Shown in pieces: positions 1 to 49,542 of a DNA stretch of 64,000 nt. The stretch lies in the NCBI GenBank assembly GCA_015179125.1, contig WHVA01000063.1, forward strand, positions 62,001-126,000, in the 5' to 3' direction. Under the pieces are notes generated by a model. It was not told where the DNA came from and made no database searches. It saw only the letters and a program-made list of their open reading frames with translations. Position 1 is the first letter of the stretch. Each line of letters starts with the position of its first letter. The position numbers and the translations under genes are program-made. This DNA comes from Gautieria morchelliformis. Taxonomy: Eukaryota; Basidiomycota; Agaricomycetes; Gomphales; Gomphaceae.

Positions 1-119
1 TATGAGTTGACTAGAGGAATGTTTGAAAAGCCTTTCCCCAGTTATATTAACAGCATACAGATACTGTTAATTCCTCAAATGTGTTTTTACATGTTGTCAA
101 GACAAAAAGAAAAGACTAG

Positions 120-460
120 GGCTGGTTGAGCAGCCTTCCTTGGCTGGTTGAACAGCCGTTCCCCTACAGCGCACGTTGCGCTATCGTCCGGGTGGACGAT
201 GGCGAGGCGTCCTCCCATCCCACGATCATCCAGTGCTCCTGGTCTATCGGAGCACGGAGAATGTCAGCGGCCCCTTGTCTCGGGGCCGTTGTTCGCGTTG
301 TGGACGTTGACGGGTCAACGTCCATCCCATCTTTGGGGGGCATCATCTTCGTGGGTAGATGATGGTGGTGGTTGCTTCCAAGAAGCGATGCGCCCTCGGA
401 AAGATCCGAGGTGAAAATTTAACCGCGCCGTGGCCGGCGCCTCACGTGGTCTGCACGTGA
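120..460. repeat. Train of twelve short hairpins in the non-coding end of the Gypsy element
   Basis: Successive perfect stems with short loops: 120-135, 142-157, 169-181, 183-200 (7-bp stem), 204-214, 233-255 (7 bp), 269-287 (6 bp), 302-323 (10-bp stem, 2-nt loop), 341-364 (8 bp), 374-386, 394-411 (7 bp) and 442-460 (7 bp). They follow one another with almost no spacer. This is the 3' untranslated/LTR side of the element. Confidence 0.8.
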
Positions 461-469
461 CAGACACGT

Positions 470-988
470 CTAGCGGCATCTGGGGAGGTCACGTGGCTTG
501 CCCACCCCCCGAAGCTCTAGGTAGCTATCCAGGGCTTCAAGGTCCTTGCAGGACGACATAGGTTCCCATGTCACGTCGCCTAGGGTCCAACAGACCTGGA
601 ATTCCAGGTCCGTCGAGTTTATCCATCGATGTGCGATAATCTCGTCGACGAGCCACTCCTCGTCGTCATTTGCTCCGAAGTCATAAAATGACTTGGCCTC
701 ACGACGAGGGAAACAATTCGTCGTTGTTAGCCTCGTATCGCCGTACGAGGCTGGAATGGAAGATGGTGAAATGCGACGGCTTTTCAGTTCGTCGGGAAGA
801 TCGAGGGTCACCGTCGAGGCGTCGTTGTGAGCCTCGAGGACACGGTATGGTCCGATGTACCGCGGGACTAGCTTTCTGGCTCTTCCTTTCGGGAGAGTTA
901 GGTTTTGTGGTGAAAGGTAGACGTGGTCGTTGGCCGCGTACCTGTCGCTCGCCATACGTTTCTTATTTGCGTGAAACGTTTGCGTCAC
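470..988 (-). CDS. Integrase C-terminus with chromodomain (fossil)
   Basis: The first part carries the GPY/F-type module (LVPRYIGPYRVLEAHND). The last about 60 residues form a chromodomain: EEWLVDEIIAHRWINSTDLE, then FQVCWTLGDVTWEP with the aromatic cage positions, and an LDSYLE-like helix. In chromoviruses this domain is thought to steer integration to marked chromatin. The stop lies at 470, followed by the hairpin-rich non-coding end at 120-460. Confidence 0.8.
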   Translation of the reverse strand: MTQTFHANKKRMASDRYAANDHVYLSPQNLTLPKGRARKLVPRYIGPYRVLEAHNDASTVTLDLPDELKSRRISPSSIPASYGDTRLTTTNCFPRREAKSFYDFGANDDEEWLVDEIIAHRWINSTDLEFQVCWTLGDVTWEPMSSCKDLEALDSYLELRGVGKPRDLPRCR

Positions 989-1924
989 TCAATGCTCTAT
1001 GATTGCATCGTGTGCCGCCATCAGGTTCCATTTTGCCTGATGTGCGAATCGGGCCACCCCCTTGAACGGGGTGTCCGCGGATATGGGGAGGTCTATCCGC
1101 GGCATATAGCCATGGTTCAGCTCGAAAGGTGCGAATCCTGTGGTCGCGCTGATGTTGCTGTTGAGGGCGACCTCAACCATTGGGCATTTCACTGCCCAAT
1201 CCTTCTGATCGTCTCTGATGACCGTGCGCAATATCTGGCCGATCGAGCGGTTTGCCCGCTCGGTGGCTCCATCCGTTTGTGGATGGAACATGAGGAGCTT
1301 AGTCCCCATGAGTTGCTGGAGTTCACGCCAGAAGATCGACGTGAACTTTGAGTCTCTGTCCGAGACGATGGAGTCGGGAACTCCATGCAGTCGGATGACC
1401 TCTTTCAGAAACAGCCAGGCTACTCCCTTGGCTGACACGCTCGTCGTGGTTGGTACGAGGTGTACGAGCAAAGTTAGTCAGTCGATGACTACCATCAGGT
1501 AGTCACAGTCGTTGGATTTGGGCAGGGGCCCCATGAAGTCGATGCCGATCGACTGCCATGGCCTATCCGGAATGGGTAGGCTGTGTAGTAGGCCTTTGGG
1601 CCGTTGTGGCCTGGTTTTCGTCATCTGACACCTCGCGCACGATGTGCAGAATGCTTCTATGTCTGGGTTCATGCCCGGCCACCAATATGCTCTTCGAACG
1701 TAGTTCGAAGTCTTCAGATGGCCGTAGTGGCCGACTATCTGATGTGCCCGATCAATGATAATTTCGATCAGCCTCCTTCCCCCTTGAAGAACAGAGCGGG
1801 GGATGGCAATGACGTCTCTCTTGAGCTGATTCTTAGTCCAGATCAGGCCGTCCCAGATCCCGAATCTCGGGTGCGCATCCGGGTGCACCATGATCTTTGT
1901 GAACATGGTGTCCCTATGGTACAC
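989..1924 (-). CDS. Integrase region of the Ty3/Gypsy element (fossil)
   Basis: The HHCC zinc-binding domain is visible as AHQIVGHYGHLKTSNYVRRA followed by CTSCARCQ. The catalytic core follows with IDFMGPLPKS, SDRDSKFTS and the block TDGATERANRSIGQILR, which hold the D,D-35-E style residues. The family enzyme inserts the cDNA. Downstream the frame is continued by the GPY/F and chromodomain region at 470-988. Confidence 0.8.
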
Positions 1925-1947
1925 GTCTCGTAGGACCTTAGACAGGT

Positions 1948-3792
1948 CTACGCCTTGCTCGACGATCTGGCGCAGGGGTGCGCCATCATTCCCTGTGGCG
2001 ATGGCTCTGATGTCATCGTCATCGTCGCGGCGACGTTTGCGGGCTCTGGTGAGCCCTCGTTTAATGCGGCGGCTTCCATTACTCTCGCCTCTGTCTTCTC
2101 AGCGAGGCGTTTAGAGTGTCTTGTCGCCGCTGTTCGCAGCTCGACATACCGGTCGGTGGGCAATAACTCACCGTCTGGGTCTAAATGCGCATCCGCGTTC
2201 ATGAAGACGTGGTCCGGGTGATTGTCATCACTTGTGTCGCTCTCGTAGTAGCGCGACAGGCAGTCCGCTACCTTGTTCTCTACACCATCTACATGAACGG
2301 TGTTGAAATTGAACCGGGATAGAAACTCCCACCATCTGACCTGTCGGTCAGATAGGCTCTTTTGGGTCTCGAAGTACTCGAGCCCCTTGTGGTCTGTGAC
2401 GAGGGTGAACCTTCGCCCCAGCAGTTTGTCCTCCCATTTCATGAGAGCCTCGAGCACTGCGATCATCTCGTGCTCGTGAGTCCGGTAGTGTTGCTGAGCA
2501 ACGCTGAACTTCTTTGACAAGAAGCCGGCTGGTCGACCAGTTTTCCAGTCAGGACCTTGGCCGTAGACCACACCGACGCCGGCTTTTGATCCGTCGGTGA
2601 TCACCCAGATCGGCTCTGGGCATCTTGCGTCTACTGGATGCAGGATCGGGGCCTTACAGGCCAACACCTTAATGCTTTGCCAGCATTTGTCGAGCAGTGG
2701 TGTCCATTCGAATGGACAGTTATTACGCGCACAGCCCGATAGCGGGGTGGTATATGCGCTAACATCCGGCATGTAGTGTGCCAGATACTGTACGAGCCCA
2801 AGGAAACACTGGATGTCGTTGAACGTCCGTGGCCTGCGCCACTCGCGGATGCGTTGCATCTTATCCTCGTCGGCATGTACCCCTCGGCCATCGATCATAT
2901 GGCTGAGGCACTCCATTCGGATGGAGTAGAGGTCCACCTTTTTCTTGCTCAGAAAGAGGTGGTTCTTCCTCAGTCTGTCAAAGACGATGTAGAGGTGTTC
3001 TTCATGCTCTTGTATTGAGAGCGAGAATATGAAGATGTCGTCCATGTATACATGGACGAAGCGGCCTATGCAGTCACGGAAAATGGCTGTCATCAGCCGT
3101 TGGAATGTTGATGGGGCGTTACAGTCCCCCATCTGTATCACCTGGCTCCTGAAGGTGCCGAGGATCGTGGCAAAGGCTGTCTTTGCTACGTGATCTGGAT
3201 GGATCCGGATCTGCTCGTATGCTTCTGACATATCGAGTTTAGTTCGATATTGGCAGCGAGCCATGTCGCTGCGTATGATATCCTGATCCGGGAAGGGCGT
3301 GACGTCCTTCACCGTGTTTTCGTTCTGCTGGCGCAGATCGAACACGGTTCTCAACGTACCGTTCTTCTTCGGCACACACAGCATGGGCACTGCCTGCTGC
3401 GCTACTGCCGGAATCCACCACTTTGCAGTGGTGTATCGTTCTATCTTTGCCGACAGTTCCTCTCGGAAGTGTTCGGGGCATTTTGGTAGTCGATACCGCA
3501 TGTGCTTGTTGGGATCGATGAGGTTGATCTCATGGTTGATCTCCCGCAGTGGCGAGAGTTCTAATGGAATTCCACTGACTAGGTCAGTGATTCTTTCCAT
3601 CCATTCCTCGCGGAGGTGAGGAAGGTCATCATCCGTGGTAGTGGTTGGCTTAGAAGCCATTAGGCGCTGTTGGCGTCTATTAGGTCCCGTGGCGCACGGG
3701 CCCGCTTTCCTCTTTCCCATCGCTTTCACCGTTAGGTGAGAGCGTCTCTCCCTACGGCTGTAGGGTGAGTTCGAGGAGGAGTCGTCCTGCAA
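1948..3792 (-). CDS. Reverse transcriptase-RNase H region of the Ty3/Gypsy element (fossil)
   Basis: A long reading frame with the Ty3-type RT blocks in order: VPKKNGTLRTVFDLRQQN, the palm motif YMDDIFIFS, and FLGLVQYLAHYMPDVS of the thumb/connection. The RNase H domain follows, with ITDGSKAGVGVVYGQ, EHEMIAVLEALMKWE and TDHKGLEYF. In the family this enzyme copies the element RNA into DNA inside particles. The YMDD codons sit inside a perfect 22-bp palindrome at 3038-3059. The frame is the longest open stretch of this element. Confidence 0.85.
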   Translation of the reverse strand: MQDDSSSNSPYSRRERRSHLTVKAMGKRKAGPCATGPNRRQQRLMASKPTTTTDDDLPHLREEWMERITDLVSGIPLELSPLREINHEINLIDPNKHMRYRLPKCPEHFREELSAKIERYTTAKWWIPAVAQQAVPMLCVPKKNGTLRTVFDLRQQNENTVKDVTPFPDQDIIRSDMARCQYRTKLDMSEAYEQIRIHPDHVAKTAFATILGTFRSQVIQMGDCNAPSTFQRLMTAIFRDCIGRFVHVYMDDIFIFSLSIQEHEEHLYIVFDRLRKNHLFLSKKKVDLYSIRMECLSHMIDGRGVHADEDKMQRIREWRRPRTFNDIQCFLGLVQYLAHYMPDVSAYTTPLSGCARNNCPFEWTPLLDKCWQSIKVLACKAPILHPVDARCPEPIWVITDGSKAGVGVVYGQGPDWKTGRPAGFLSKKFSVAQQHYRTHEHEMIAVLEALMKWEDKLLGRRFTLVTDHKGLEYFETQKSLSDRQVRWWEFLSRFNFNTVHVDGVENKVADCLSRYYESDTSDDNHPDHVFMNADAHLDPDGELLPTDRYVELRTAATRHSKRLAEKTEARVMEAAALNEGSPEPANVAATMTMTSEPSPQGMMAHPCARSSSKA

Positions 3793-3848
3793 CTCGTCCT
3801 CCTGGCTTCAATGAGTCAGGTTCGGCTTCGGCGCTTGGGTGATCCTGC

Positions 3849-4154
3849 TCACCCGTGGCCCTTTGTCCTCGTTCTTGATTCGTCGTCGTCGAATGAGACC
3901 TTGCCCGTGGGGATCACCTCGTTTCCCTTGCGGATCGTCCCTGGGCTCGAGAAGTCCAGGGTTATGCCGAATCTCCTTAGGAACGGTGTCCCTAAGATCG
4001 CGTCGTAATATTCGATGTTTGTTACATCGAAGTATTCGTCGTATGTCTCACGACCAAACTTGATGGTCGTGTTCGTTCCATAGTTGATCGTGGAACGGCT
4101 GCCTATGCAGGCCAGCTGCAGCGCGATTGGTTGCTCCAGGGAGAACGTGTTCAT
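3849..4154 (-). CDS. Aspartic protease region of the Ty3/Gypsy element (fossil)
   Basis: A short region between gag and reverse transcriptase with the run YYDAILGTPFLRRFGITLDF, which is the C-terminal signature of retropepsin-like proteases (ILGxPFL). The family enzyme matures the Gag-Pol polyprotein. The position between Gag and RT fits the Ty3/Gypsy order. The N-terminal active-site part probably lies in the neighbouring frame near 4150-4300, where a weak DTG-like context was looked for but not seen clearly. Confidence 0.6.
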   Translation of the reverse strand: MNTFSLEQPIALQLACIGSRSTINYGTNTTIKFGRETYDEYFDVTNIEYYDAILGTPFLRRFGITLDFSSPGTIRKGNEVIPTGKVSFDDDESRTRTKGHG

Positions 4155-4233
4155 TCCTGTAGCTCGCGTGAATTCAGGGGACAGCAGTACCCCTTCGCTG
4201 CCGCTACTAGCAGGCAGTGGGCCTTTACGCCGT

Positions 4234-6939
4234 TTATTTCCCAGTACCCCGATAGGGTACGGTTCTCACTACGCAGACGCGTTGGCCGCATTCTGTGTTT
4301 GCTTCGGTGGTGATACACCGGCTCGGCTGCCTTGTCTGGCGTGACCGATGTGCGTGCCGCCATGACTTTCGTGGCGGTTTCGTCTTCCAGCGCGAATCTA
4401 ATCGCGCTGGACCTGTAGGTGGTGTCCTCCACCTCTTCGTCCCATTCATAGTATTGGGACGGCTCAGGGTCCCACTCTTCAGCGGGCGTGTCTCCGTTAT
4501 CCGGAGTGTCGTTGGGTTGGGGATCACCCTCCCCTCTTCATCAATCTGTTGAAGAGAGTTTTGATCGGGATCCGTCTCCGGATCCTCAGCTTCACCGTCG
4601 TGCCTCACGGCCGCTGTCCTTATACCGGACCTAAGCCGGGGGCATTCTGCCTTCTTGTGGCCAGGTTGGCCGCATTCAAAGCATGTGGCGTTGCCTTGGC
4701 TGCCGCTGGGCCTGTTGTTGGGCCGGCCCGACGTTTTCGTCGGTGGGGCAGGTCGCGGGGACGACCCTGACGCTTGAGGCTGTTTAGCTTCAGGCGGGCG
4801 TCCAGCTTGTGCTGGGCGTGAGGGCGGTAGCCGTTGACCTGTTCCGCTTCTTGTGAACAGGCTGGGCCTGGTCAGGCCCGTTTGTGTCAACGGCTTGCTC
4901 CCTGTGAGCCGGGTGGCGCTCGCCGTTGCTGCTGCGCTTTCTGCGCGGCGCATCCCCATGTTGTATCGGGATGCCTTCTCGATCATCCGGGCCGTCTCGA
5001 AGAGTTGCTCTATGGAGCTGCTCTCGGCATTATAGCCCTTTTTGAGGACCTCGTTCGCAGCATTTCGCGTAGCGCCGATACGAACCGTCTCCGGAACGTG
5101 TACTCGTCTGGTGGCTGTATCATACGTGCCGCGTACTTCGTGAGCTCGTTCAGCATCTCCTGAACGGTTTTCATGCCTTGCGTGACCGCGTCGAATTTAT
5201 TTGATGCGTGATGGGTGATGGTACGTCAGTGTGTGCAGGAACCTCTTTTGAAGGCCTTGCATCACAGATTCCAGCGTCCAGCTGCGGACCTGGCAATCGA
5301 AGCGTTCAACGTTTCGAAGGAACCATTCCTGGGCTTCGCCGGTGAGGCGAGTGCCCACATAGCCAACCTGCGTGTCAATGCTGGTGGGCCCTAGGAGGCA
5401 GTTCATTTTTAGCCATCGTAGGATGGCTGCCACGAAGATTTCAAACTCTTCGAGGTCCGATCCCCCTGCATATGGCTCGGGGTGGGCCAACTTTACGCCG
5501 GCCTTCGCTAGCACAGACTTCTCTGGGTCTGTGTCCGCGGCGCCTGCTAACGCCACGTGGATCATCCATGTGATCCCGTCGTACGGCTCTATTGGTACAA
5601 CGTCGGCCTGGTCAGGGATTCCCTGGCCTTCCGTTGGGGCCATGGATCGCTCGCGCGGTTGTGACGCCGTGTGGGGCAGGCTGTTATATGCCCTGATGGG
5701 CCCCGGGCCTGGATCGGGCTCGGGATCGGGAGCATTTTGTGCTCTCGGTTCCGGGGGCGTTTTGTGCCTGGTGTCCCCGGTCAGTCCCACGTTGCGGATC
5801 CGTAACCTGCTGTTGTAGGCAGCGCGCGCTTGCCGTGCGTCCTGTACGGCTTGCGTGAGCTGCTCATCGGGCAGCTGAGCGGGTGGCTGTGGGCCACCGT
5901 CTCTTCGGCGTTCTTTGCTAGTAGCTCAAGTGCCCGTGTGTGGCGGCGCGCGGCTGCGGCTTCTTTACGCTGCCAGTGTGCGACTTCGAGTTCTAAGCTC
6001 TCGGTCGTCATTTCAGAGTCAGGCTCTGAGGCGACCTGATCCCTAACGATCTGTTGGATCGTTTTACAGCTGTCCGTTGGGGCAGCCGGTTGCTCCTGAG
6101 GTTCGTTCCCGAACCTTACGTCCTGTTCGACCGGGACGGCTGGCGGCGGCATTCGCTGTTTGTCTCGCTCCTTTCGGCGCGCGTCGCGACTGCGTTCGTT
6201 AGCTGCGGACTGTCGCGAGCTCGGACGAGTTGCGTCGCGTTCCCCGTGTGGGCGGAGTGCTTTCTGGATGTCCTCCAGCGTGGCTGCGTCTTGCAGCCTG
6301 ACCTCCTCTGCCTGGTGGAGTTCCTTGCCGATTGCCATTAGGGCGGCGGTGGCGTTGTCAAGCTACGATGCCAGCTGATCGTGCTTGTGGCGCGTCAGCG
6401 TACTTCGGTGCAGCGCAGCCTGCACCTGTTTGTTCAGGGCCTCTGCCATCTCGTGGTCGATGGCGTGAGCCCTCGAGCTCTTGCGACTAGAGCTTGAGTA
6501 TTCCGAGTCCTGACCATCGTCTGGGGCTCGTCTCTTCTGCCGTCGTCCTCCTTCAGGGACGATCATTGTCGCTCTACTTCGTGAGCGTCGGTTTGAGTCG
6601 TGGCTTTGTGCCCGTCTCGACGTTGTTGCTCTACCGTCTGACGATGGCGAGACTTCTCTGCCCTTTCCTTTGTCCTTGGGCAGAGGGAGATGGGGGGGGC
6701 GGTGCCGGCTCATTGCTCGGCGTCGTCTCTTCTTTGGCCACGCTCGACGAGACGTGGTCAGGGTTTTCCTCGTCCTCTACTGAGGGGACGAGGGCGGTGA
6801 GATCTACGATCTCTCCTTCTTCTATCGTCCTGTTCTCTTGGTCCAGGATAGCGTCAGCCATCGTGTCACTGGGCTGCGCCTGGGGTGTGGACCTCGAGAT
6901 CGTCGCTCGTGTCCGTCTTTGACTGCGTGGAATCATCAT
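4234..6939 (-). CDS. Gag region of the Ty3/Gypsy element (fossil)
   Basis: Capsid and nucleocapsid part of the chromovirus at 120-7250, spread over several frames. The distal part holds a CCHC zinc knuckle of the form CFECGQPGHKKAEC near 4660-4690, preceded by a proline- and serine-rich linker. The middle part (about 5200-5790) resembles the capsid-like retrotransposon gag domain, with the run EAQEWFLRNVERF. The N-terminal part is charged and low in complexity. In the family this protein forms the virus-like particle and binds the element RNA. It is treated here as a relic. Confidence 0.7.
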
Positions 6940-7283
6940 GCTCGCAGCCGACAGTAGAAGGTCTACTGGAGGGTCTCAACGATGTTTAGTCGTCGACGCA
7001 GCGATCTTTTTCAAGATTGCTTCGAATCCACTATCGGTTGGTCGCGTGGCGATCAACCGCAGGATAGTTCAAAAAGGTGTAAAGATATCTATCTTAAGCC
7101 TCAGGTCACAAGAGCACGACAGAACTTGACCAATGTGTGGTATTCTGATGCTACGTAGTGACAGTGTAAGGGTAAGATGCGATGGGGGCCGCTGGCTGGT
7201 TCCCACGCATAAACTATACAGTGGGTCCCTAAGGGGCCCACTGGGATTATGTAATAACTAATGTACATGTAGATACACGGGTT

Positions 7284-8413
7284 ATTTACAGTTCGTCAGC
7301 AGGGTCATCTGCAAGGTAGGGCTCAAAATAATCCAGAGCCGTTCCCTTGAGGAAGGACAAAACGTAGTTCACTTTTGTAGAACCATCTCAGAATGCTTGG
7401 GGTTTGGCATGGAAGTTCAGCGTGCACTGGAGAAGAAATCCTTGGAGCTTTTTCTGGGTCCGAGCCATCAAACTGGTTGGGTTCCCGGAGTTTAGCCTTC
7501 AAGTCACTTCAGTCTCCACCACCACCAAGCCCATTGTCGGCGAGCCTTTCCAAAGCCATGAGCAATCGCCCAACCTGTTCCTCGCCATTTGCCCCTGCAT
7601 TCGGGTTGGGATTAGGTCTCGGGCCTGCTACTTCAGGATTGGAATTATGCTTGGAACCGGATTTGGAATTATCGGCACCTCCACCACCATCGCCAGGATC
7701 ACTCGGATCGGGGGGTTCAGCGCTCGGTTCTTTGGGAACTTCGCTGACATGCCCTCGGCCAGCACCAATTACTCGGCGCCGGGGTGTGGGTTGAACTGAC
7801 GGGGGGTTGGAATACCAGTGACGGAATGGGGGGTTTTCCAGGATGCTCGAAGCACCTCGTGCACACCTAGCTTCAATTGTCGGCGTTACGTGGCTGCCTT
7901 TGGCATGGGTGTAAGATCGGGTGATCGGCATTCTGAACAAAGAGTGTAGGGAGTTCAGATATACTGTTAAGGTTGTGTTTGTACTGCAGTTCGGCTATAC
8001 CAGGGAACTCAGGTCTCGGGTCGGAGGGCTTGGCTTCAACCTCTTGGGTTGCACCCACTCTATGTTCCGCCCTGATTTCGGGAGCGGTCTCGGCTATAAG
8101 CCGAGATACCGGTTTCGATATCAAGCAGAGGGTCTCAAGTATGATAAGCTAATTTGATATCTGAACTGAGGAGCTACTGTACATGGACTGGAGGTCTATA
8201 TAGTAAAGTAGCGTGCAGGGTCGCGAAGAGAACATGATTGGATCAACGGTCAGGGGAAACAAGGGTCAGGCAAACAGGGAACTAACGAGAAAAGGGAATC
8301 AGGGGTGATGGGAAGTGCGAAGGGAAACCCGAAGGAAGCCGAGAATAACCTGAGGTTCCCAAATGAGAGCCGAAGCCAAGCTTCGTTCTGGATTCGGGAT
8401 TGGGTCATAACAA
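7284..8413 (-). mobile_element. Second Ty3/Gypsy element, 5' fragment (LTR/leader and gag N-part)
   Basis: On the minus strand the region 7290-7940 encodes a Gag of the type common in basidiomycete Gypsy elements: an acidic, proline-rich linker (VPKEPSAEPPDPSDPGD), an Asn-Pro-rich run, and then a capsid-like block near 7290-7500 (NQFDGSDPEK, LKGTALDYFEPYLADDP). Upstream, 7940-8413 looks like leader plus LTR, beginning on the minus strand with TGTTATGACCC at 8413 and including a TATATAG box near 8195. Everything downstream of gag is missing from this copy. It is broken and incomplete, and probably old. Confidence 0.6.
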
Positions 8414-8848
8414 GCATGAGCAATGGCTTTCAAAGGGGTCTGGGGGTTGTCATTTGTGCAGACCGCACACATAAGGAGGCTACATAGATAACAATTAGGA
8501 AGAATGAGGATGCAAGAAAGAAAAAGCGAATGTACAGGAAGCTACCATTTCAGGAGAAATGGCATTCATAGGCATAAAGTAAGAGTGTGTTCAGCTTTCG
8601 TTGCTCTATGTCTACACCAAGCGGCGACGAAGAAGATAGGAGGAACTGAGTCCGCTTGCAGTTGTTTGTGCAGCTGTAATGAGTTACTCATATGCCTGCG
8701 TAAACAATAATTGTCAGCGCTGTGAAAAAGTTTGATTTTGTTTCGTGGGAGAAATGACAAATTACTCAGAGGAAAACGAAATTTTGGCAGAGGGCCTAAG
8801 ACAATTGTCACGTTTAAGACCCGCTTACCTAATGGTAGCGGGAATATA
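8414..8848. other. Unassigned stretch
   Basis: I see no gene or recognised element. Short ORFs on both strands show no family likeness. It separates the Gypsy fragment from the left piece of Helitron H0. Confidence 0.4.
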
Positions 8849-9067
8849 CAGACATAAATAAAATAGTAAAGGAAACCATATTTAAGCAGCTGCTGTCATT
8901 AATTTTAGCAAAGTCAGGATTATCTATTTTTCAAAAAAATGTCAAGAAAATGTCTAGTACATGTAATTTTAGCAAAGTTAGGATTAATCTATTTTTTGAA
9001 AAATGTCAAAAATGCACTGTACATTTATGTAAGCTGGAGCTGTCTCATAAAGTCAGGATAATTTATT

Positions 9068-9718
9068 CTGTGTTTAAATAGGTACATCTTTACACAGGGC
9101 AAACTCTGCCCCGGTCTGCCAGCTTAGTCGTCGCACCGACAGTTCCGCGCCTCTACGCTCTCGCACCTGCTCTTTCTCTCTTCTACAACCAGGGTACGCT
9201 TTACCCTCCGCCGCCGCTAATCCTCGTTCCGCTGAACGTCTTTTTTCCGCAGGCCTGAGTCCCGCTTCGGCACGGCTGGACCTGCATCATGTGGTTCATC
9301 ATCGTGTCTCAGCGGGAGGCTCACCCAGGCCCTTATTAGTTTTTGCGCCTGCATGCCTCATTCCTCGCTTGCTCGCATCGCACTCTTACCTTCGCACAGG
9401 TAATTACTCCATGGCCTGCTCGCCCCGCGCATACTAACTTCACAATCCAGCTTATTTGCACCTTTTTTGTCTCCCCTTCCCCCCTCTCTCTTCGTTCGCA
9501 TCCCTGTGCGGCACGACTGCTTTTTCCCCATGGGTTTTTTAATGCCTCGTGCCATCATCAGGTGCCCCATCGTCTTTCCCTTTCACTTTTGCATACTTGT
9601 ACTTTACCGCGTTCTGTATGGCGCTCGATAAAGTTTTTTCTCGCGCGGCGGCCTCACCCGGCGCCAACACCCCCTTTACTCACTGCTCTAAGCCTTTTGC
9701 TCCACTCAAGGAATTCGT
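9068..9718 (+). mobile_element. Solo Ngaro/DIRS-type terminal repeat
   Basis: A 651-bp insertion in H0, bounded by H0 sequence that is contiguous in sister Helitrons. It is an inverted, diverged copy of the terminal repeat of the Ngaro-like element next door (10011-10690). Shared stretches include GGCTTAGTC/GCTTAGTCGTCGCACCGACA, a GCACAGGTAA block, and the run CCATGGGTTTTTTAATGCC against CCACTGGGTTTTTTACTGCC. No coding sequence accompanies it, so it is the counterpart of a solo LTR. It looks old. Confidence 0.6.
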
Positions 9719-10010
9719 GATATCTATTTGCAAAAAAATGTCAAAAAAGTACAGTACATTGAAGCAGAAGCTGTTATTAATGCTCAGCCAAAGCCAGAGA
9801 AGCCCAGAGACTGACAGAGAAACCCAGAGCCCAGCCAAAGCCATAGTAAGCCAGCCACCAGTATAGCCAGAGAGGAGTGCCTGGTAAGCGGCTTTACAGT
9901 AAATAAAACAATAAGACAAACCACATTTAAAAGCAGAACCTATTGTCATTCATTTTAGAGGAAACTTATTGATATCTATTTTCGAAAAAAACCTGAAAAT
10001 TATAGATATC

Positions 10011-10690
10011 GAATCCTTGGGCCCGAGCCAGGTCAGCTTAGAGTGAGATATAGTGTGCTGGCGCCTAGCGAGGTCGCCACGGGAGAAAAGGTTTTGAGAG
10101 ACGTGTATGGTACAAGTATATAAGGAAAAAGGGGAAGGCGAGTGGTGCATGGGGTGGAGGGAGGGAGAAAAGACCTTATGGCGGCAGATGGCAGTAAAAA
10201 ACCCAGTGGGAAAAAGCCTAAGAGCCGTGCAGGGATACGAACAGGAGAGAGGGAGGGAGGGAGAGCCAAAAAAATGCAAACAGACTGTGTGGCGTTAGGG
10301 CGAGCGTGGTGAGCGAGCCAAAGGAAGGTGTTTTACCTGTGCGAGGCAGCGTGATGCGCATGTGGGCACCAAAAAACTGGGTGAGGCCGCTAAATAAGAT
10401 AGAATGGTCCCCCCACTGAGACACGTATGATGGCTCTCTGATGAGTGTCTGATGTGAGCGCGGACGCACTCAGCGGGATTCTATCACAAGTGTACGGCTA
10501 CGGTTCAGCGGCACTAGCGGCGCTGGGGAAGAGAGGTGATACATACCTTAATGTACAAGACAAGACAGGAATAAGAGAGGCAGGTTGAGGCTAAGAAACT
10601 GGGAGGCATAGGAGTGTCACGTGCGATGACTAAGCCATGAGCTCGGCAAGGGATTCGTCTGGTGTAAGTGCGTTCCTACTTAAACCCTGA
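10011..10690 (-). repeat. 3' terminal repeat (A2-B2) of the Ngaro-type element
   Basis: The outermost 94 bp (10011-10104) recur as a direct repeat at 10692-10785, just past the inner edge of this repeat. The whole 680-bp unit is related to the inverted solo copy at 9068-9718. It holds no coding sequence. Confidence 0.6.
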
Positions 10691-10691
10691 C

Positions 10692-10785
10692 GAATCCTTG
10701 GGCCCGAGCCAGGTCGGCTTAGAGTGAGATATAGTGTGCCAGCGCCTAGCGAGGTCACCACGGGAGAAAAGGTTTTGAGAGACGT
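10692..10785 (-). repeat. Inner direct repeat (B1) of the Ngaro-type element
   Basis: About 94 bp, nearly identical to 10011-10104, starting GAATCCTTGGGCCCGAGCC in both. Split direct repeats of this kind are how Ngaro elements close their circular intermediates without an integrase. Confidence 0.7.
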
Positions 10786-10833
10786 AAATGGTAGAATGAT
10801 GATGGGATGATGTAGGAGGAAGAAGAAAAAGTG

Positions 10834-11620
10834 TTAAAGCGGGGCGTTAACAGCAGGTTGGCCGTGAAGGAGGGCATGCAGAACGACAGGGTGCTTGCGA
10901 ATGTAAATGCAAAAGGCTTCGGATGACCAGAGTCCCATGCCTTGGATGACGCTGTCGGGGACGCCGGAGAGAGCTAAAGAAGTGGCACCGCCGGAACAAA
11001 GGGAGTGGCCGCCAACATCAGGGCCTAGGGTGTGGGTTAAGCGTGAAGTAAACCAGGTGGCAGTTGGGGTGACGCCGGCAGAGGTAAGCCAGAGTTCAGG
11101 GGTGATAGGATAAGAGAGAGTCGCGAGAGGAGATGTAGCGACGCATGAAGAAGAGGGGGTCAATGGGAGATTTGGGCTTGGCGAGGACTATGATTTTGCT
11201 GCCTTGATAGAAGCGATTGGCCTTATGGAAAGGTAAGTGGAAGGAAAATTGAGCATCAGAAAGGGAAAGGGTGTGGCGGGCAGTAATTTTTTTCAAGGAA
11301 CGCTTGGTGGGGGAGTTTGAAATGGTCATTTCGCCGAGGCGGAGTAGGGCAGAGAAGCCAGTGAAAAGCATAGCGAGAAAAAGGGAGTTGTCGTGGGAGG
11401 GGGTGTCGAAAGTAGAGCGCAGGGTGTGGGAATCATCAGTAATAAGAGTGCGTTTTTGAGAGGAGACAGAGGAACCTCGGCGCTTTCTGATGCCTGCTAA
11501 TGCACAGCATACAAGAGGGGAGGCGTGGACGGAGTGGACTTGAGGGTAATGAGGTTCGAGGGTGTTGCAAATGCCGGAAAGGTAGGCGAGTACTGAAGCG
11601 GGTTGAATATGATGAGACAT
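10834..11620 (-). CDS. Tyrosine recombinase region of the Ngaro-type element (fossil)
   Basis: The C-terminal block GGHSLCSGGATSLALSGVPD followed by IQGMGLWSSEAFCIYIRKHP is the tyrosine-recombinase signature: the H-x-x-R-like box, a GxWSS block, and a catalytic-type Tyr in the last helix. Upstream, FLAMLFTGFSALLRLGEMT matches the first arginine box (LRxGE). In the family this enzyme replaces the integrase and recombines a circular DNA into the target. Confidence 0.75.
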
Positions 11621-11835
11621 GAAGATGACAAATAGACTGAGAGTGTTGGGGGTGGGGTCAGTAGGGAAGCTATGAATTTTGCAAAAGGTGAGATAAGACT
11701 GAAGATGAGAATTGTAAGCGTGCGATGTGGAAAGCTCAATGGCATGGTCAAGTACGATGGCACGTTCATGCCAGAGCCGTTCGTGAGACCAGGTGACCCG
11801 GGGGGGTTGCCTGGCTCACGGGGAAATATGGAGCA

Positions 11836-12986
11836 TTAGAGCGCAGCCCCCATCGCATCCTGAGGGGGTTTAAATGGGTGCATGCACAAGCGAGGGTGCA
11901 CAGCGGTGGCTACGTGGAAAAGACCACGGGAGATAGTGTCTGCCACGGTGTTTTCTGAGCTGGGAATGTGAAAGACTCTAAGCGAAGTGGTTTGCGAGAG
12001 CAGCAAGCGGATAGCGAAGAGGAGAAGCCGGTTGTACTCATTGTAAGCTTTGAGTGAGTGAAACATGTCCACTGTATTCATAGAGTCAGAATAAATTAAA
12101 AGCCGGCGTGGAGGCGGCACGAGTCCGACAGAGAAAGCGAGGGTGGAGGCAACACTGAAGGCTTTGAAGAAGAAGATGTGAAAAAATGGAGGCTGTTGGG
12201 AGATGGGATGGAAGAACGCGGAGTCAAGAGATGGTATGTAGAAAGCAAGGCCTTCGAGAGATGTGTCGCAGTAGACAATGAGATCCGCATCTGCGCGACC
12301 CCAGACGATTGAATCAAGAAGGCAGAGACCGTCGGAAACAGTGCTGGTGTCGGCGAGCCAGCGCAAGTCTGAGATGACTGCCTGGTTCAGGTAGATGGAC
12401 ACTTTGAGGATGAGTTTGCTGGCGATTTTGGCATATGAGGACTGCAAAGCAGGGTGGAGCAATGGATAGACATTTAGTGACCAGTTAATCCATCCGATGA
12501 GTCTCTGCCATTGGAGGAGTGAATGGCGGTGAGTGTTTGATACATTGGTGAATTCTCGAATGGCGAAGACTAAGGCTTGCTTGCTGGCCGGAGGGAAAGT
12601 AATGGACATGGAGCGCGGGTCTACATCGAAGCCAATGATGCGCAGCGAAAAAGCGAATACTTGCTTGGGCTCTTCATGCGGGAGCGAAATCTCATCCCAG
12701 AGCAGTAATAAACGCACTTGTTTCGACGGGTAATATTTGTCATACGGTCGGTACAAATAGAGAGTCGGGTCCATTTCATGCGACCAGGCGTCGTCCATGT
12801 AATGCAGCAAATCACGGATGTCTTTGACATGGATGGCTATCCAGATGACAAGGCCCATGAAGGTGCACCAGATCCGTGCCACGCTGCGAGTTCCAAACTC
12901 CATGCAACGGTCGACGTGTCACTGACCGTCGATGGTGACTATTTGCTTAATCTGCCAGAATGGATGGACTGGCCAGCGGTGGTATG
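11836..12986 (-). CDS. Distal reverse transcriptase and RNase H of the Ngaro-type element (fossil)
   Basis: Starts after the insertion boundary with RT palm sequence (WQIKQIVTIDG, CTFMGLVIWIAIHVKDIRDL) and the YMDD active-site box (LLHYMDDAWSHE). The RNase H-like domain follows, with DLIVYCDTSLEGLAFY, YSDSMNTVDMFHSLKAYNEY and VFHIPSSENTVADTISRG. The last is the LPSxxNxxADxLSRG box typical of DIRS/Ngaro RNase H. The proximal RT half lies beyond the insertion, at 15480-15744. Confidence 0.75.
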
Positions 12987-15472
12987 TGTTGTGATAAACG
13001 CAACTATCCCATTTCAAATCATTTATATATAAAAGAAACTAATAAAGAAAGAAAAAAAAGAAAAATATCAAAAAAGAAACAGAAATGACATTTATGATAG
13101 ACGTCGGCGCAGATGACGATCACATGAATTTACGACATGCTATATTACCCATAGATTGGGTAATGTACAGGAGTTCGGGCATCGACCACGTGCGGTTGAT
13201 CAGGGACGGCGCGCCTATCGAGTGATGGCATCGGCCATGACATCGACAGGCGCCAGGCCATAGGCACCGAGGGGTGCGGGCACCAAACCCCGCAGAGGAC
13301 AATAGACTGCGCAGGAATATAGGGTGCTGTGGAGCGACCTGAGAATGTCATCCGCAGTACACATACTCAATTAGCTGCCCCACAGAAAGGGCACAGAGAC
13401 AGCGGCCCCATCTCCAAGTGTTTTGGAACCCTTCAAGACTTTGGTGTTATTGCTAACACTTCAATCTATCAGAACGTGTCGTTTACGAGACTCAAAGAAT
13501 ATTAAACAATGCTGCAGCACAACTCCGGAAATAATTTAATATTTGTACCTTGGTTGCAATCCGCGTAAAAACTTGTCCAAGTTAATATGGATGGAAGGCA
13601 ATGCGTTTCTTAGCAGCACTGAACAATAAACTAAAAGAATGTAGGTTCAAGGACACTATCGGGGTCCAAGCGTATTCCAAAATATAAAGGAATGTACTTA
13701 GCAGGCGAGTTTATAAATGGACTGCCCTGATAATCTACCAGCGCACAGCAATAAAACGAGGGATGAATGAGTTTTAGAAGTGACTTGTGAAAGTCTCTAA
13801 TCAGGAAAATCAACTGATCAGATCGTCTCGGGTATTGGAGTGCAAATGGCAAGACTATCAATTGACAGACTCACTCTGTAGAATTACACCCGGAGGATTA
13901 GTCTAGGTGGCTAAGCAGAAAAGTATCTACTTAACAAGGAATTAGACACTAAAGTAAGTGAATAACCCTAGCTGGGATTAGCAGCTTAGTAAGATGCAAG
14001 TCACATGAGGTCACGTGGATAAAGGATTGCTAGATTGATGATTCAAGGAGGTCAGAATGGCCTCCTTTTATATTGTAAAATACACAGGATTACATAAAAT
14101 GGGGTTCTTCTATCTATTAGGCGAGTGATGTCATAAGTAAATATTTGCACTGCTGAAACACACCCTCATAACTATTGCGGCGTGTTTGTGCAAAGAAATT
14201 GGAAATAGATAGCCAATCACCTTCCCTGGTTTGCACAGCCTTACACAGCCTTTCACAGCCTTGCACTGCCCTGCACAGCCCTACACAGCCGCTATGACAT
14301 CAAGGGGCCTATTTGGTGTCGTAGCGTTGCGTTTGGAGGATCCTTCATCCAATAGGCTTTATCAAACCTGCACCCTAGTTTTGGCTTTGTACATCTTTGT
14401 GTGACTTTGTACGCAGCCTTGCACAGCCACGGTTGCTATGATGCAAGTCATGTGCCAGCTGGGTTTGAATTGGACAGGCTTGTGTAAGCAGTAGAGGACA
14501 CATTCAGACTCAGTGGCTGAGTTTGAGTGAGCCAAGGTACCGGAGTTGTAGGTGCTTGAGTGCCTGCAACTCCGAGTTTACGGTTCGTGGGAAGCTCCGG
14601 TCGGAGTTTGAAACTGAACGGCTGTGGCAGAGTTGTGGACGTGCGTGGGTTCATAACTCTGCCTGACAGAATAAGGTGTTTTTGAGCCAGGGAAGCCAAG
14701 TTAAATGGCGAAAAAATAAGAGGAAATTCAAGGAATATTTGAATAGAGTTCTCCCAACAATAGCCACATGTATTAGCTACTATCAGCTGGGAAAACAGGG
14801 TTTTAAAGCGATTTTAATCCTTTTTTCGCGAGGCTTTTCATTAGCAACGGTTCCCACACAGGTAAACTCAGCTCCATTTTTCTATTTGAACCCCATGACA
14901 CGTCTGACTGATTACTATCTTAACATCATGTGGACAGGGGCTTTGTATACTAGGTACAGATCTCTATTCCAAAGCCCAGACAATCCTGACACCATCCCCA
15001 TCACCCCATGACTTTATGACTATAAAATAGTCACCCCTTAGCTACAAACAGCTCTTCAACCCATCTGTCTAATATCTTGAACACTAGTAGTTACTATCAA
15101 CATAGTATAAATAGCTAGTACAAATGTATGAACGAAATCATCCAGAATCGATTATTCTGCCTCCTGAAATTACTGTAGTCTTGTTTGATAGCTACAGAGC
15201 TCAGATCTTGATAGTTTATTCCAAATCTTCGTCGAGGGTCTACTATCACTGTTTACTCTATACTACTTTAAAAGCGAATGCTTTTGATTTGGTTATCCCT
15301 TGGATCGACACCGTTCTTCTGTCAACACGGTCATGTGACTCTCATTTATCAGTGCTGGACGCGCCTCGAAAGGCTTAGTCAGCACACAGACGAGGGGCGA
15401 ACACAGTGGTTCCATCCACTGAGCAATAGATTCTATTCGTTGAAAGGCACTAATTAACATCTTAATCCAAAA
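12987..15472. mobile_element. 2.5 kb insertion in the Ngaro RT, unclassified
   Basis: The RT coding sequence is contiguous in sense on either side of this block, and GTATG stands on both edges (12982-12986 and 15473-15477), as expected for a 5-bp target duplication. Inside there is no long ORF. It is AT-rich, with an A-rich run near 13030-13085, a run of CACAGCC-like words at 14231-14292 and a possible solo LTR at 13877-14172. I cannot name the element. It may be several decayed insertions. Confidence 0.5.
13877..14172 (-). repeat. Possible solo LTR
   Basis: On the minus strand this begins TGAGGGTGTGTTTCAGCAG, carries a strong TATAAAAGG box near 14070-14080 and ends ...TTCTACA. The TG...CA ends and internal TATA box suggest an LTR. 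I could not find a matching target duplication, so the edges are uncertain. Confidence 0.3.
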
Positions 15473-15744
15473 GTATGCGCTTGAGACATCGTCCTTGAAA
15501 AGCCATGCGGGTGGATGCCCATGAAGCTTGCGAACGTTGCGCAAAATGGTGCCGAAGTCTTGAAGATTGTCAAAACGAATGGAATAATCGCAGTGAGCAA
15601 TCCAGGAATTAGGCGCGTGTGGACCCACACTGAGGTCGTTAATGAGGCAGAATTTGTCTGAATGGGGCTTAGGCACGACTCCAACCGGGGTGCTGTACAT
15701 GCCTGGGAGCAGATTAGTGCCAAAAGATGCTGAGTACCGCTCAC
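15473..15744 (-). CDS. Proximal reverse transcriptase of the Ngaro-type element (fossil)
   Basis: Holds the fingers/palm blocks VGVVPKPHSDKFCLINDLSV, GPHAPNSWIAHCDYSIRFDN and PPAWLFKDDVSSAY. The first catalytic Asp lies in the KDDVSSAY box. This is the DIRS/Ngaro-type RT. The frame is separated from the distal RT by the insertion at 12987-15472, which is flanked by GTATG on both sides. Confidence 0.75.
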
Positions 15745-17394
15745 AGTCTATCTCAATGTCTCGCTGTTCACGCAGGAAAGCGAGTCCTTCTGGACTAACG
15801 GCTCATTCCGAGAAGTCAAGCGTGGCAGGAGCGGACTCATCTGGGAAAGCAAATGGCCATACTCCTTCTCGCAGACTCCTGCACACCGACTCTACAAGAG
15901 GTCGGTTCGGATGAGTATCCAGCAAGCTCTCGAAGTGGTCGGTGTTTATTGGTGAAATGATGCGGAAAAGTGACGGGTTTTGTTGGATTGTGCTAGCAGC
16001 TGCAGTGTCTTGGAGGACCGACAGTGGTACGGATGGAAAAGGGTCGGCGAATTCGGTCGAAGTGGCAGAGGGCGAGCACGAAGTTGCGTCCTTTGACCAC
16101 AGAAAACCGCGGGTCCACCTGGGTCGCTCCCAGCGCTGCGAGAACTCACTGCTTCAATGCATCAGCTTTCTTTTGGCTCCCGCAGTCCTTGACGGGATGT
16201 CTCCCATAACAGCCGACACATTGGTGCCAGTATTTGCATGAGTAGCTTGTACATCTGCCTGCGTTGAATCTCCTGCATATGGGCTGGGCGGCCGAGGAGG
16301 ATTGCGTGCGCTGTGCTCTAGACGGGCTAGGCTCATCGCCGTAGGCGCTGAGATGGCGTGTGGAGAGGTCAGTGAATTCGGAGAGGGAAGTGAGAGTGAG
16401 CTGATTGTCTTTGGCAACGCGCACTCGGATTGCTTTGTCCAGATTGAGGACTCGGAAGTGGAGTGACGTGGGTCGAACTGCGGCGAATAGTCCAATGATG
16501 TATTCTTTGTACTTGGACAATTCTTTGGCTCGATGCGGGTAAACATAGAGGATGGCGTGCTTAGCGGCGGCAAAGGCGATTGTCCATTCTCCATGGGTCT
16601 CGATGGCCTTGGTAGGCTTGCTTGCTCCTCCGCCGGTGGACAAGGTGATGTCGACGTTGCCGACGGTTTTGGTAAGTTTATGCTCGGATTCAAGGGAATA
16701 GTACCCTGAGTAGACTTAGTCCAAGTCGATGAATCGGTTGGCAAGGACGTCGAGCCACAAACCATCAGGGAACTCGGGGCAGTCGAGTTGGGAAACAAGG
16801 TCATTCTTTGCGGCTTTGAGGTCGAGGAGATGATATGCCTTGATGGCCAGGGTCTTTCTCGCCACGGGGTCTGCCGGTGTGTGGTCTCTGCGGCATCGAT
16901 GCCATGTGTAGGCAGATTTTTTTGGGCTTTTTCTGCTTCACGATGCCGAATCTGAGCTCAAAGAACCTGAATGTCCTCGTTTAACCGGTTTAGACGAGTC
17001 TGAGCTATCTGAGTCTGATTGAGTTGGAGGTTCGTCTGAAGCAACATGCTCGGTCTCTTTTCCTTTGTGTGCCTTGTCTTCTGCCTCCGCAAATCGTGCC
17101 GTGTGGTGTCGACGACGCGGTCTGGTTTCTCCTTGCATTGTGGCAGCAGAGTGCTCGGCGTCGATTTCCGTGCAAAGTTAGATGTAACGCTTAAAAGCGG
17201 CTTGGCCACGTTCGTTGCTTGGCAAAGTTTTGCTAAGTTCAACAATGGCGTCGGCGGAGGAGAGTTCCCCGGAGCGCCAGCGCTTGACGAGACAAAGGCA
17301 CTTTTCGCCGACGACAGTAGCAATAGGTCTGTGCGCTGACTCATCGCTGGCCATAGGTTGAGATTAAGGTGTCGAAGATTGAAGTAGAGCGAAA
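15745..17394 (-). CDS. Gag region of the Ngaro-type element (fossil)
   Basis: The distal part (16146-16643) ends in a cysteine/histidine array: ICRRFNAGRCTSYSCKYWHQ, then CVGCYGRHPVKDC. This is a CCCH plus CCHC-like finger as found in DIRS/Ngaro ORF1 proteins. The start region on the minus strand near 17356 reads as an acidic-to-basic N-terminus (MASDESAHRPIATVVGEKC). A serine- and aspartate-rich linker lies near 16940-17020. The frame is not continuous. The region 15745-16146 links Gag to RT and shows no motif I can name. Confidence 0.6.
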
Positions 17395-18122
17395 AAATGG
17401 TTTTCAGCACAGTCTTGGGGCTTTATTTAAATCTATTTTCGAAAAAATTCACAAAAATATAAAGCACATATGTGACAATACAATATGATAAAAAAAAAAA
17501 AAGGAACCAATAAAATTACAAACACAAATAAAATAAAATACATGGCAATGCATTAAAAAAGAGATATTATCTACCAATAGAAAGCCAGCCAAGGCAGTAG
17601 ACCACCACCAGCCAAGCCAATAGATAGCCAGCCAGCCAGAGCAATAGACAGCCAGCCAGCTAAAGGGAGAGACAGCAGACAGAGCAGACAGCAGACAGCA
17701 GAGAGAGGAATTGCCAGTCAGACAGATTCCTGGCATTCCATCCTTACCGTTCTGCCTTTATACTGCGCGCGTGTGTCGTGCACGGACCACGCTCCCATAT
17801 TGTCACGAACAGGTCACGTGACTGCTGCGCAGTGCCGCTCACCAATTGGCCAGCTGACTAAGGCTGACCTAAACCCTGACATAAGCTTGACGCCCACAAC
17901 CCACTGAGCTGCTTTCATATAGACTAGGTGGATACCCGCGCGAAGCGCGGGGGTGCAAGTCAAACGCCTCGGTAAGGTCAAACGCACCAGCAAGGTCAAA
18001 CGCCTTGGGTAAATAAAACTTGGGATAAGTCAAACATATTCGGATAAGAAAACTTCTTTCAGATAAGTAAAACTCATCTTATTGATTGAAAGTAGCTCTA
18101 AGTAACACATCAAGGCAGGTAA

Positions 18123-18803
18123 TGTTATGACCATGCTGCTTGACCAACTCTGGTACCTCCATGCCTCCTCTGGCTCAATTCCGCAACGTCCACACTTTGA
18201 CCTTTTCATCCCCTTGTTCTTTACTATTCACATACTTCCCCTTTTGACTCTATTCACCATCCTTCCCTACTTGACCCTTAGCATAGCAAGTCCGGAGCAT
18301 CAGGAGATCCATTTGTTCCACTATCAATTAGACCCACATTCCCCTTGTTCTTTTGCCTATTGATTGTCCTTAGTTCTACCCGGCACCCCCTTGTAGTTCC
18401 TCTTGTTCCGTATTAGTTACTTTCTCCATTTATCCTAGTTACTTTTGCTTGCACTGGAATTGCTTACCTCTACCTTCTGACATGTTGTCTCAGCTCTTTG
18501 TATAAAACCCAGTCATGTGTGGCTCTGTTCAGCAATCAGATAATCGACTTTGATACGTGACTCCCTTTGCACTGTCTCCAGTTCTTAGACCTGCAAGGCC
18601 TCTGTCTCTCTGACCTCCGTCTTCCAACTTGATTTCTCCATATCCAACTTAACTCAATTCTTGAACCCTTACTACTTCAGTTACAATACTCAGCCTCTTC
18701 CAACTTCCAATCTCAGATCTCCAAAATACTTAGGATGATAGTTGGGGGTGCAACATATAAGTTGAAGCTGCAGTCCTTTTAGATCCAAACCTGATACATA
18801 ACA
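18123..18803 (+). repeat. Solo LTR (family 1) inside H1, GGTAA duplication
   Basis: 681 bp, starting TGTTATGACC and ending GATACATAACA, so the ends form a short inverted repeat TGTTATG/CATAACA. GGTAA stands on both sides (18118-18122 and 18804-18808). A TATAAAA box lies near 18502. The same site is empty, with one GGTAA, in H6 at 30066-30070. An LTR retrotransposon solo copy, whole as an LTR. Confidence 0.85.
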
Positions 18804-18829
18804 GGTAATGACTCTACACATTTCTCCCA

Positions 18830-19875: not shown

Positions 19876-19919
19876 AGCATATCCCCAAGGGCTTCAAAGT
19901 GAAGCAAGCAGAGGCTGTT

Positions 19920-39364: not shown

Positions 39365-39468
39365 ATATGTAGTTTCATTTCACCAAATAATTCTGTAATA
39401 CTATTGACCACCCCTGTGTGATGTTAACCTTACTTAACTAACCCGGTGCGAAGCACGGGTCTATTGGC

Positions 39469-49534: not shown

Positions 49535-49542
49535 CGTGACTT

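Follow-up and report, generated by a model that had tools for sequence, protein, structure and literature searches.

Described systems and the element under study

Chromoviruses, the Ty3/Gypsy elements with a chromodomain, are the commonest Gypsy elements of fungi, as stated in PMC3248453. In the Ty3 genome RNA, SHAPE-MaP probing found that about 20% of the sequence forms a well-folded core (PMC11381356). GORS-type structured genomes carry sequential, mostly unbranched stem-loops along the coding sequence, with short duplexes and a high MFED. The template-switch mechanism has been described in RNA genes (PMC8794818) and in the coding genes of yeast (PMC8604942). Searches of the open-licence literature yielded no LTR retrotransposon saturated with hairpins over its whole genome, in line with the preliminary description of this locus, which knew of no Gypsy family with such hairpins.

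The window, the whole stretch of 64,000 nucleotides of Gautieria morchelliformis contig WHVA01000063.1 that was analysed, holds a degraded element whose sense strand is the minus strand. It was assigned to Ty3/Gypsy by its protein domains, a single copy being known.

120-7250, minus strand: Ty3/Gypsy element, chromovirus-like, degraded copy, hairpin-dense (stem counts, Pfam; ends approximate)
120-469, minus strand: 3' non-coding part (3' UTR or possible LTR), densest in hairpins (7 stems of at least 7 bp in 350 nt)
470-988, minus strand: integrase C-terminal part, Tf2-1-like SH3 domain (PF24626, 3.1e-9) and weak chromodomain match (PF00385, below cut-off)
989-1477, minus strand: integrase core part (weak rve match, 0.024)
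1478-2098, minus strand: integrase zinc-binding part, Integrase_H2C2 (PF17921, 9e-17)
1948-3807, minus strand: reverse transcriptase and RNase H, open reading frame (PF00078, 1e-22; PF17917, 1.7e-26; Ty3 Gag-Pol chain 7q5b, 3.7e-65)
3849-4265, minus strand: likely protease stretch (by position only; no Pfam match)
4234-5196, minus strand: nucleocapsid part, CCHC zinc knuckle (PF00098, 3.7e-5)
5197-5925, minus strand: capsid part, weak Ty3 capsid match (PF19259, 0.002, below cut-off)

The reverse transcriptase and RNase H are Ty3-like by all three matches listed, and the integrase lies downstream of RNase H, which is the Ty3/Gypsy gene order. An in-frame stop on either side parts the integrase core from its neighbours, and the chromodomain match is weak (E 0.008, 16.5 bits against a cut-off of 25.1). 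The element thus shares with chromoviruses the RT-RNaseH, the H2C2 integrase, SH3_Tf2-1, the CCHC knuckle and weak chromodomain and Ty3 capsid matches; unlike the best-scoring relatives found (L061 and L062), it is saturated with short perfect hairpins. No direct repeat links the two ends of this degraded copy, which lies 120 bases from the window edge, and the ends may be lost. An Rfam search of 1-8400 gave sub-threshold matches only, and no tRNA was found in the window.

Hairpin density and codon choice

Perfect stems of at least 7 bp with loops of at most 10 nt were counted against 30 dinucleotide shuffles. The element (120-7250) has 51 such stems compared with 3.7 ± 1.7 in the shuffles (z 28.6), and 470-7250 has 44 compared with 3.3 (z 22.4). 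The unusual hairpin density claimed in the preliminary description is therefore more than ten times chance and outside the shuffled range, and its chance rate of well under one stem per 300 bp agrees with the roughly 0.15 obtained here. The 13 stems that it quoted are all present at the positions it gave; their size of 7-11 bp holds for 12 of them, the stem at 3686-3700 having 6 bp, and the 12-nt loop at 1320-1347 slightly exceeds the loop limit of 10. The following stems are a selection, the element having further 7-bp stems.

301-324: 11-bp stem, 2-nt loop
593-610: 18-bp palindrome
729-752: 9-bp stem, loop 6
1019-1042: 7-bp stem, loop 10
1075-1102: 9-bp stem, loop 10
1160-1177: 7-bp stem, loop 4
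1179-1200: 8-bp stem, loop 6
1268-1287: 7-bp stem, loop 6
1320-1347: 8-bp stem, loop 12
1486-1505: 8-bp stem, loop 4
1692-1710: 8-bp stem, loop 3
2334-2353: 8-bp stem, loop 4
2701-2718: 18-bp palindrome
3038-3059: 22-bp palindrome across the YMDD codons of reverse transcriptase
3573-3589: 7-bp stem, loop 3
3686-3700: 6-bp stem, loop 3
4011-4031: 8-bp stem, loop 5
4049-4071: 8-bp stem, loop 7
4386-4411: 10-bp stem, loop 6
6768-6793: 8-bp stem, loop 10

Most of the excess comes from stems with loops of 3-12 nt, and by stem length it is highest at exactly 7 bp (39 stems at these loops, about 2.2 expected); loops of 21-60 show none. It is greatest in the 3' non-coding part and the integrase, and least in the capsid part and the 5' end. 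Complementarity at fixed distances of 4-26 nt was hardly above expectation (mean z 0.62), so the signal sits in perfect runs. With one-mismatch stems included, hairpins may recur about every 60 nt in the coding as well as the non-coding parts. Like Ty3, the element would have a structured genome RNA; the Ty3 core of about 20% comes from probing, whereas the 42% covered here by hairpins of at least 5 bp, chance ones counted in, is predicted from sequence alone. Neighbouring stems rarely overlap at at least 7 bp (0 among 51, 7.1 expected) or at least 6 bp (4 among 86, 17.2 expected), and overlap is present among those of at least 5 bp (32 of 170).

Elsewhere in the window the Helitron reading frame (33367-36417) is at chance level (3 stems, 2.7 expected), as the preliminary description had it for both Helitron and Copia, but the Copia element (46445-50688) is slightly raised (7 compared with 2.4, z 2.6). 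Counts were 2 compared with 3.7 in 39468-45395, which holds a Pif1 helicase fragment, and 8 compared with 7.3 in 8000-20000. Two raised stretches, 20000-33000 (19 compared with 7.8, z 5.1, many being repeated motifs) and 51000-64000 (26 compared with 6.9, z 8.4, 7 of the 26 from one AT microsatellite), are far below the Ty3/Gypsy element in excess.

Protein scans of viral contigs with the reverse transcriptase and two Ty3 alignments found no relatives, and a family-like reverse transcriptase motif had no match in viral or genome contigs. Relaxing the motif brought up 2 viral and 56 genome loci, of which the 34 with a Gypsy reverse transcriptase by tblastn were kept as controls and the other 24 left out; two of the controls (L003 and L017) look like one element. 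Re-searching host genomes (2, then 26) added L059-L060 and L061-L090, many on contigs already found. Across L061-L090 the z ranged from -1.8 to 3.7 for stems of at least 7 bp and, for those of at least 6 bp, reached 6.1 in L074. The two best-scoring relatives (35-37% identity) have 2 and 3 stems of at least 7 bp compared with 1.1 and 1.5, and the best (37%) shows no hairpin excess. L025/L059/L091 and L008 looked mildly hairpin-rich and were rejected: they lack the loop asymmetry and, taken over longer stretches, hold about 2 stems of 7 bp or more per kb.

Other Gypsy loci being mildly raised, a small part of the excess is generic, and this is what speaks for chance, base composition or coding bias as the cause. 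Such an origin is practically out of the question for the whole, since the element reaches z 18.3 (at least 6 bp) and 25.1 (at least 7 bp) against maxima of 7.2 and 6.1 in the 34 control loci, and the dinucleotide and synonymous-codon controls rule it out. The idea of an assembly artefact was also dropped, the reverse transcriptase frame being open across its stems.

The hairpins are written into the genes mostly through synonymous codon choice. Ten partly overlapping reading-frame segments were compared with 100 synonymous-codon shuffles each (stems of at least 7 bp, loops of at most 12). All ten exceed the shuffle mean and six (reverse transcriptase, three integrase pieces, the CCHC piece and the protease piece) exceed every shuffle, which the four remaining gag-side segments do not. 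Synonymous shuffling, a check proposed with the preliminary description, brings stem counts down to about chance and so removes most of the excess. The stems have no visible amino-acid cost in pol: protein divergence in their arms does not exceed that elsewhere in pol, and positions at which the encoded protein leaves room for a 7-bp stem number 0.455 per codon in the reverse transcriptase compared with 0.450 in 43 relatives, and 0.401 in the integrase compared with 0.415 in 24 relatives.

Folding, strand and the possible causes

Folding z in 150-nt windows averages -2.9 on the sense and -2.7 on the antisense strand of the element (70 windows); the rest gives -0.3/-0.5 (112 windows), so the sliding-window check suggested earlier also sets the element apart. 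The folding excess over shuffles peaks at pairing spans of 25-30 nt (z about -30 sense). The MFED, raised over dinucleotide shuffles as in GORS-type genomes, is 21.3% on the sense strand (39 fragments of 350 nt) compared with a mean of 6.0% in 20 control loci; published values are 15% for SARS-CoV-2 and 7.5-10.7% for HCV, and the recorded maximum is 23.4%. The pairing energy is nevertheless strand-symmetric. Among one-mismatch stems, G-U occurs 12 times (3.3-3.6 expected) and A.C 36 times (6.6-6.9 expected), so that G-U is not favoured over A.C, and the adaptation of structure to the RNA strand through G-U use, which we had set as a mark of GORS-type genomes, was not found. For this reason the element works like a GORS-type genome rather than being one; it differs also as an LTR-type retrotransposon and in a folding excess largest within 30-nt spans.

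The loops point to folding of the sense strand. Among 170 stems of at least 5 bp, closure by 5'G..A3' on the sense strand was found 36 times (16.7 expected) and by A..G 8 times (16.0 expected), whereas the antisense equivalent was at expectation (11 and 10.9). Outer mismatches showed no such bias, and the 34 control loci sum to 183 GA and 183 AG. On the sense strand, loops of stems of at least 6 bp exceed shuffled loops in stability (p 0.001); antisense loops do not. The minus strand of the control stretch 8200-33000 gave GA 41 and AG 13. Satellite arrays in this stretch may be the source, and the bias was set aside on their account, but it still cautions about the GA statistic.

The explanation we prefer, at an even chance of being the cause, is that the genome RNA was selected to form a series of small hairpins. 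Mainly through synonymous codons, the sense strand of the now-degraded element would have become a row of small hairpins independent of one another, with a surplus peak at 7 bp and loops of 3-12 nt; the likely benefit would be either protection against RNA silencing or nucleases, or a large number of scattered contacts with Gag. Structured genome RNA, one of the causes proposed in the preliminary description, is supported by the dependence on synonymous codons at no visible amino-acid cost, by the sense-only G..A closure and stable loops, and by the non-overlapping tiling of stems of at least 6 bp. Against it stands the symmetric pairing without G-U preference, which a plain RNA-stability model fails to reproduce: sequences simulated under sense-RNA selection had a sense-minus-antisense energy between -59 and +15 kcal/mol in each of 12 runs, compared with +62 in the element. 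Three energy-selection models, run 36 times in all, never gave more than 16 stems of exactly 7 bp in pol, where the element has 20, and its 18 loop G..A closures there compare with about 5-9 on average under energy selection; both surpluses also count against genome-RNA selection. Further points counted against it were the GA bias in 8200-33000, the overlap among stems of at least 5 bp and the Copia MFED of 11.1%.

Selection on both strands was another candidate, for example if sense and antisense transcripts fold on themselves and so avoid long silencing-triggering double-stranded RNA. In simulation it gave a strand difference of 86 ± 19 compared with 62 (12 runs) and a low overlap of stems of at least 6 bp (9% in 8 runs, 3 of 42 in the element). 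It did not produce the sense-only closure (GA 7.0 ± 3.0 compared with 18) and made too few 7-bp stems (17.3 ± 2.9 compared with 27; 12 runs); no antisense transcript is known, and we consider this explanation improbable.

The other cause proposed earlier, a copying process that perfects hairpins, we regard as rather unlikely. Here the nascent sense strand would fold back during plus-strand DNA synthesis and copy its own arm; near-palindromes would become perfect, and purifying selection on the proteins would retain the silent events, which accrue over many cycles. The hairpins share with those of PMC8794818 their perfect short stems and the link with stable loops; those are single events in RNA genes, whereas dozens occur here in the protein genes of one mobile element. 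Template switching agrees with the strand symmetry, with pairing that is Watson-Crick without G-U preference and with exact 7-bp stems being more numerous than energy-selection models give, and the sense-only stable loops match plus-strand fold-back. Copying simulations gave a strand difference of 66-74 compared with 62, their stem count of 27 being the stopping rule and hence no test. The arms give no clear sign of one-way copying, but this is a weak test: in pol, the 5' arms have an A:T count of 50:37, which fits simulated 5'-to-3' copying (47:28) as well as two-way copying (50:40). Two-way simulation (4 runs) nevertheless reached only -841 kcal/mol compared with -1082, and fell short of 5-6-bp and one-mismatch stems (n5 47 compared with 83, A.C 2 with 15, other 14 with 30); one-way copying, 4 runs each way, halted on average at 22-24 stems, with energies of -813 to -816. 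A richer ancestor that decayed later could narrow this shortfall. No arm is acceptor-like in amino acids or codon use, the antisense loop closure predicted by minus-strand fold-back is not seen, and an effect of such size is absent from other Gypsy elements. Codon phases at protein-permitted sites were dropped as evidence of copying, energy-selection simulations having given comparable phases.

Significance for Gypsy elements

We tentatively propose, at somewhat less than even confidence, that the whole genome strand of this lineage consists of about 100 standard hairpins, each a 7-bp stem with a G..A-closed loop, which would be either dispersed binding or packaging signals and a silencing shield, or the accumulated product of a reverse transcriptase rewriting near-palindromes into perfect ones. 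If mutational, they would be a natural record of hairpin perfection by reverse-transcriptase template switching in coding sequence. If selected, they would make retrotransposons part of the discussion of why certain RNA genomes have structure throughout, as an unusually local and uniform case.

Hairpin content of the Ty3/Gypsy element

The protein domains encoded at 120-7250 (minus strand, sense) are those of a Ty3/Gypsy element: a CCHC knuckle, a reverse transcriptase (RT) with RNase H, an H2C2 integrase (IN) and a Tf2-1-like SH3 domain, together with a weak chromodomain match. The copy is degraded, with two in-frame stops breaking the integrase and a gag side spread over several frames. An LTR pair was looked for and none was found. 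The stretches discussed are the following.

120-7250, minus strand: Ty3/Gypsy element
3038-3059: 22-bp palindrome on the RT codons for YMDD, methionine codon included (Ty3 has YLDD there)
7262-8160: reading frames beside the element resembling, by eye, another retroelement gag (no Pfam match for 7509-7994)
18840-19880: arrays of imperfect short repeats, unit GTAGCATGTCC-like, with similar motifs near 22300, 26800 and 31000
33367-36417: Helitron ORF
46445-50688: Copia genes
45999-46154 and 50759-50914: one set of hairpins repeated on either side of the Copia genes, each copy with a 13-bp perfect stem and a 9-nt loop; probably the Copia LTRs
52187-52206: AT microsatellite, inflating the number of stems counted at 51-64 kb

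The hairpin saturation reported in the preliminary description was confirmed: 51 perfect stems of at least 7 bp with loops of at most 10 nt were counted in the element, against 3.7 ± 1.7 in dinucleotide shuffles (z 28.6). All 13 quoted stems are exact at their sites, that at 3686-3700 having only 6 bp. The same description judged the Copia and Helitron genes, by eye, to be without the effect, which is true of the Helitron ORF (3 stems against 2.7) and not quite of the Copia genes, which are slightly raised (7 against 2.4). The gag-like frames have almost no excess, and 8000-20000 is at chance (8 against 7.3 expected). Counts in 20000-33000 (19 against 7.8) and 51000-64000 (26 against 6.9) are raised two- to fourfold, partly because of satellite-like motifs and the AT microsatellite.

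With loops of 3-12 nt, the element has 84, 35, 39, 9, 2 and 1 stems of exactly 5 to 10 bp, where about 39, 10, 2.2 and 0.6 are expected for 5 to 8 bp. A handful of long palindromes whose loops measure 0-2 nt come on top of this, and loops of 21-60 nt show no excess. Stems broken by a single internal mismatch are overrepresented as well (100 against 31). Stems of at least 7 bp are densest in the 3' non-coding part, at 20 per kb, and thin out to 2.7-4.8 per kb across the capsid, gag N and 5' parts.

As controls, 34 Gypsy loci were recovered from contaminated prokaryote assemblies. The element reached z 18.3 for stems of at least 6 bp and 25.1 for at least 7 bp, against at most 7.2 and 6.1 in these loci. 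L061 (37% identity) and L062 (35%), the relatives ranked best on E-value, carry 2 and 3 stems of at least 7 bp against 1.1 and 1.5, and L088 (37%) carries 0 against 2.2 expected. Close copies or close relatives were not found in the sequence collections searched, nor was any hairpin-saturated LTR retrotransposon in the literature searched, subscription papers being mostly outside its cover.

Folding energy and strand

In 350-nt fragments, the mean folding excess over shuffles was 21.3% in the sense and 18.1% in the antisense strand (39 fragments each). Twenty control loci (17 of the 34, plus L059, L061 and L088) averaged 6.0% (range -8.3 to 19.4), the maximum being L059 with 5 fragments only. 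Within the window, the Copia genes gave 11.1%, the Helitron ORF 0.7% and 8200-33000 4.3%. PMC7642675 gives 15% for SARS-CoV-2, 7.5-10.7% for HCV and 23.4% as its highest value, at equal fragment size but with another shuffling program and step. With 30 nt as the pairing span, the excess of the sense strand reached its maximum, about 818 kcal/mol; with 150 nt it came to about 534.

Pairing is strand-symmetric, and the energy gain of the two strands was similar at all eight spans tested (difference z -0.8 to 1.9). Among one-mismatch stems, A.C (36 against 6.6) is at least as frequent as G-U (12 against 3.3). The sense strand is T-poor (16%) and A.C is enriched among the mismatches in stems, which suggests that once-perfect stems decayed by G-to-A or T-to-C.

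The loops, in contrast, distinguish the strands. Of 170 stems, 36 carry 5'G..A3' at the loop-closing position where 16.7 are expected, and 8 carry A..G where 16.0 are; the antisense equivalent of G..A is at expectation, and no such bias was found among outer-end mismatches. Sense loops are more stable than in their own shuffles and antisense loops are not, with RNA and DNA parameters alike. Control loci total 183 G..A to 183 A..G, and one satellite-bearing control stretch has 41 to 13. A milder hairpin excess without loop asymmetry was seen in other Gypsy elements of the contaminated assemblies (L008, L025/L059/L091). The longer stems also keep clear of one another: overlapping neighbours number 0 among the 51 stems of at least 7 bp (7.1 expected) and 4 among 86 of at least 6 bp (17.2 expected); at 5 bp or more, where many stems arise by chance, 32 of 170 overlap.

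Protein cost and possible causes

Under codon-preserving shuffling, 6 of 10 segments exceeded all 100 synonymous-codon shuffles, while four gag-side segments did not. RT has 11 stems against 2.0, and three integrase pieces have 5, 8 and 7 against 0.5, 1.0 and 0.8. In pol, to which the protein-cost comparison is confined, codons in arms match the consensus of the relatives about as well as those elsewhere do (46 RT and 36 IN loci; p 0.09 for at least 6 bp, 0.32 for at least 7), the average leaning to more conserved. Because arms are not more divergent, protein-permitted places for a 7-bp stem are no more numerous than in relatives, and codon usage is equal inside and outside arms, the pol stems were written largely by silent changes.

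In simulations, pol was evolved by synonymous changes with the folding energy of the real element as the target (12 runs per model). Against the strand difference of +62 kcal/mol in the element, sense-RNA selection gave -26 ± 24, antisense 205 ± 25, both strands 86 ± 19 and sense without G-U 51 ± 20. The fit is therefore limited to models that are strand-symmetric or use Watson-Crick pairs alone. No energy model sufficed for stems of at least 7 bp (average 11-17, at most 22, against 27) and G..A loops averaged 5-8 against 18. The surplus sits in exactly-7-bp stems (20, where none of 36 runs exceeded 16); the simulated energy reward was linear, and a saturating benefit might itself yield such a length peak.

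The preliminary description had also offered a copying process, and perfection of hairpins in the plus strand by template switching is a serious rival, which we nevertheless consider rather unlikely. Simulated arm copying (silent outcomes, three directions, 4 runs each) reproduced the strand difference (66-74), but its energy was too weak (-841 against -1082 kcal/mol), short and imperfect stems were too few, and both one-way versions stopped below 27 stems. If the ancestor was richer in hairpins and has since decayed, that could account for part of this gap.

The lack of a preference for G-U does weigh against simple selection for RNA stability. A chain of short sense-strand hairpins under selection fits the evidence better than any other single cause, and we would give this reading about an even chance. 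Selection would have shaped the sense strand into such a chain, and the family may once have carried some one hairpin per 60 nt, a rough figure as perfect and one-mismatch counts partly overlap.
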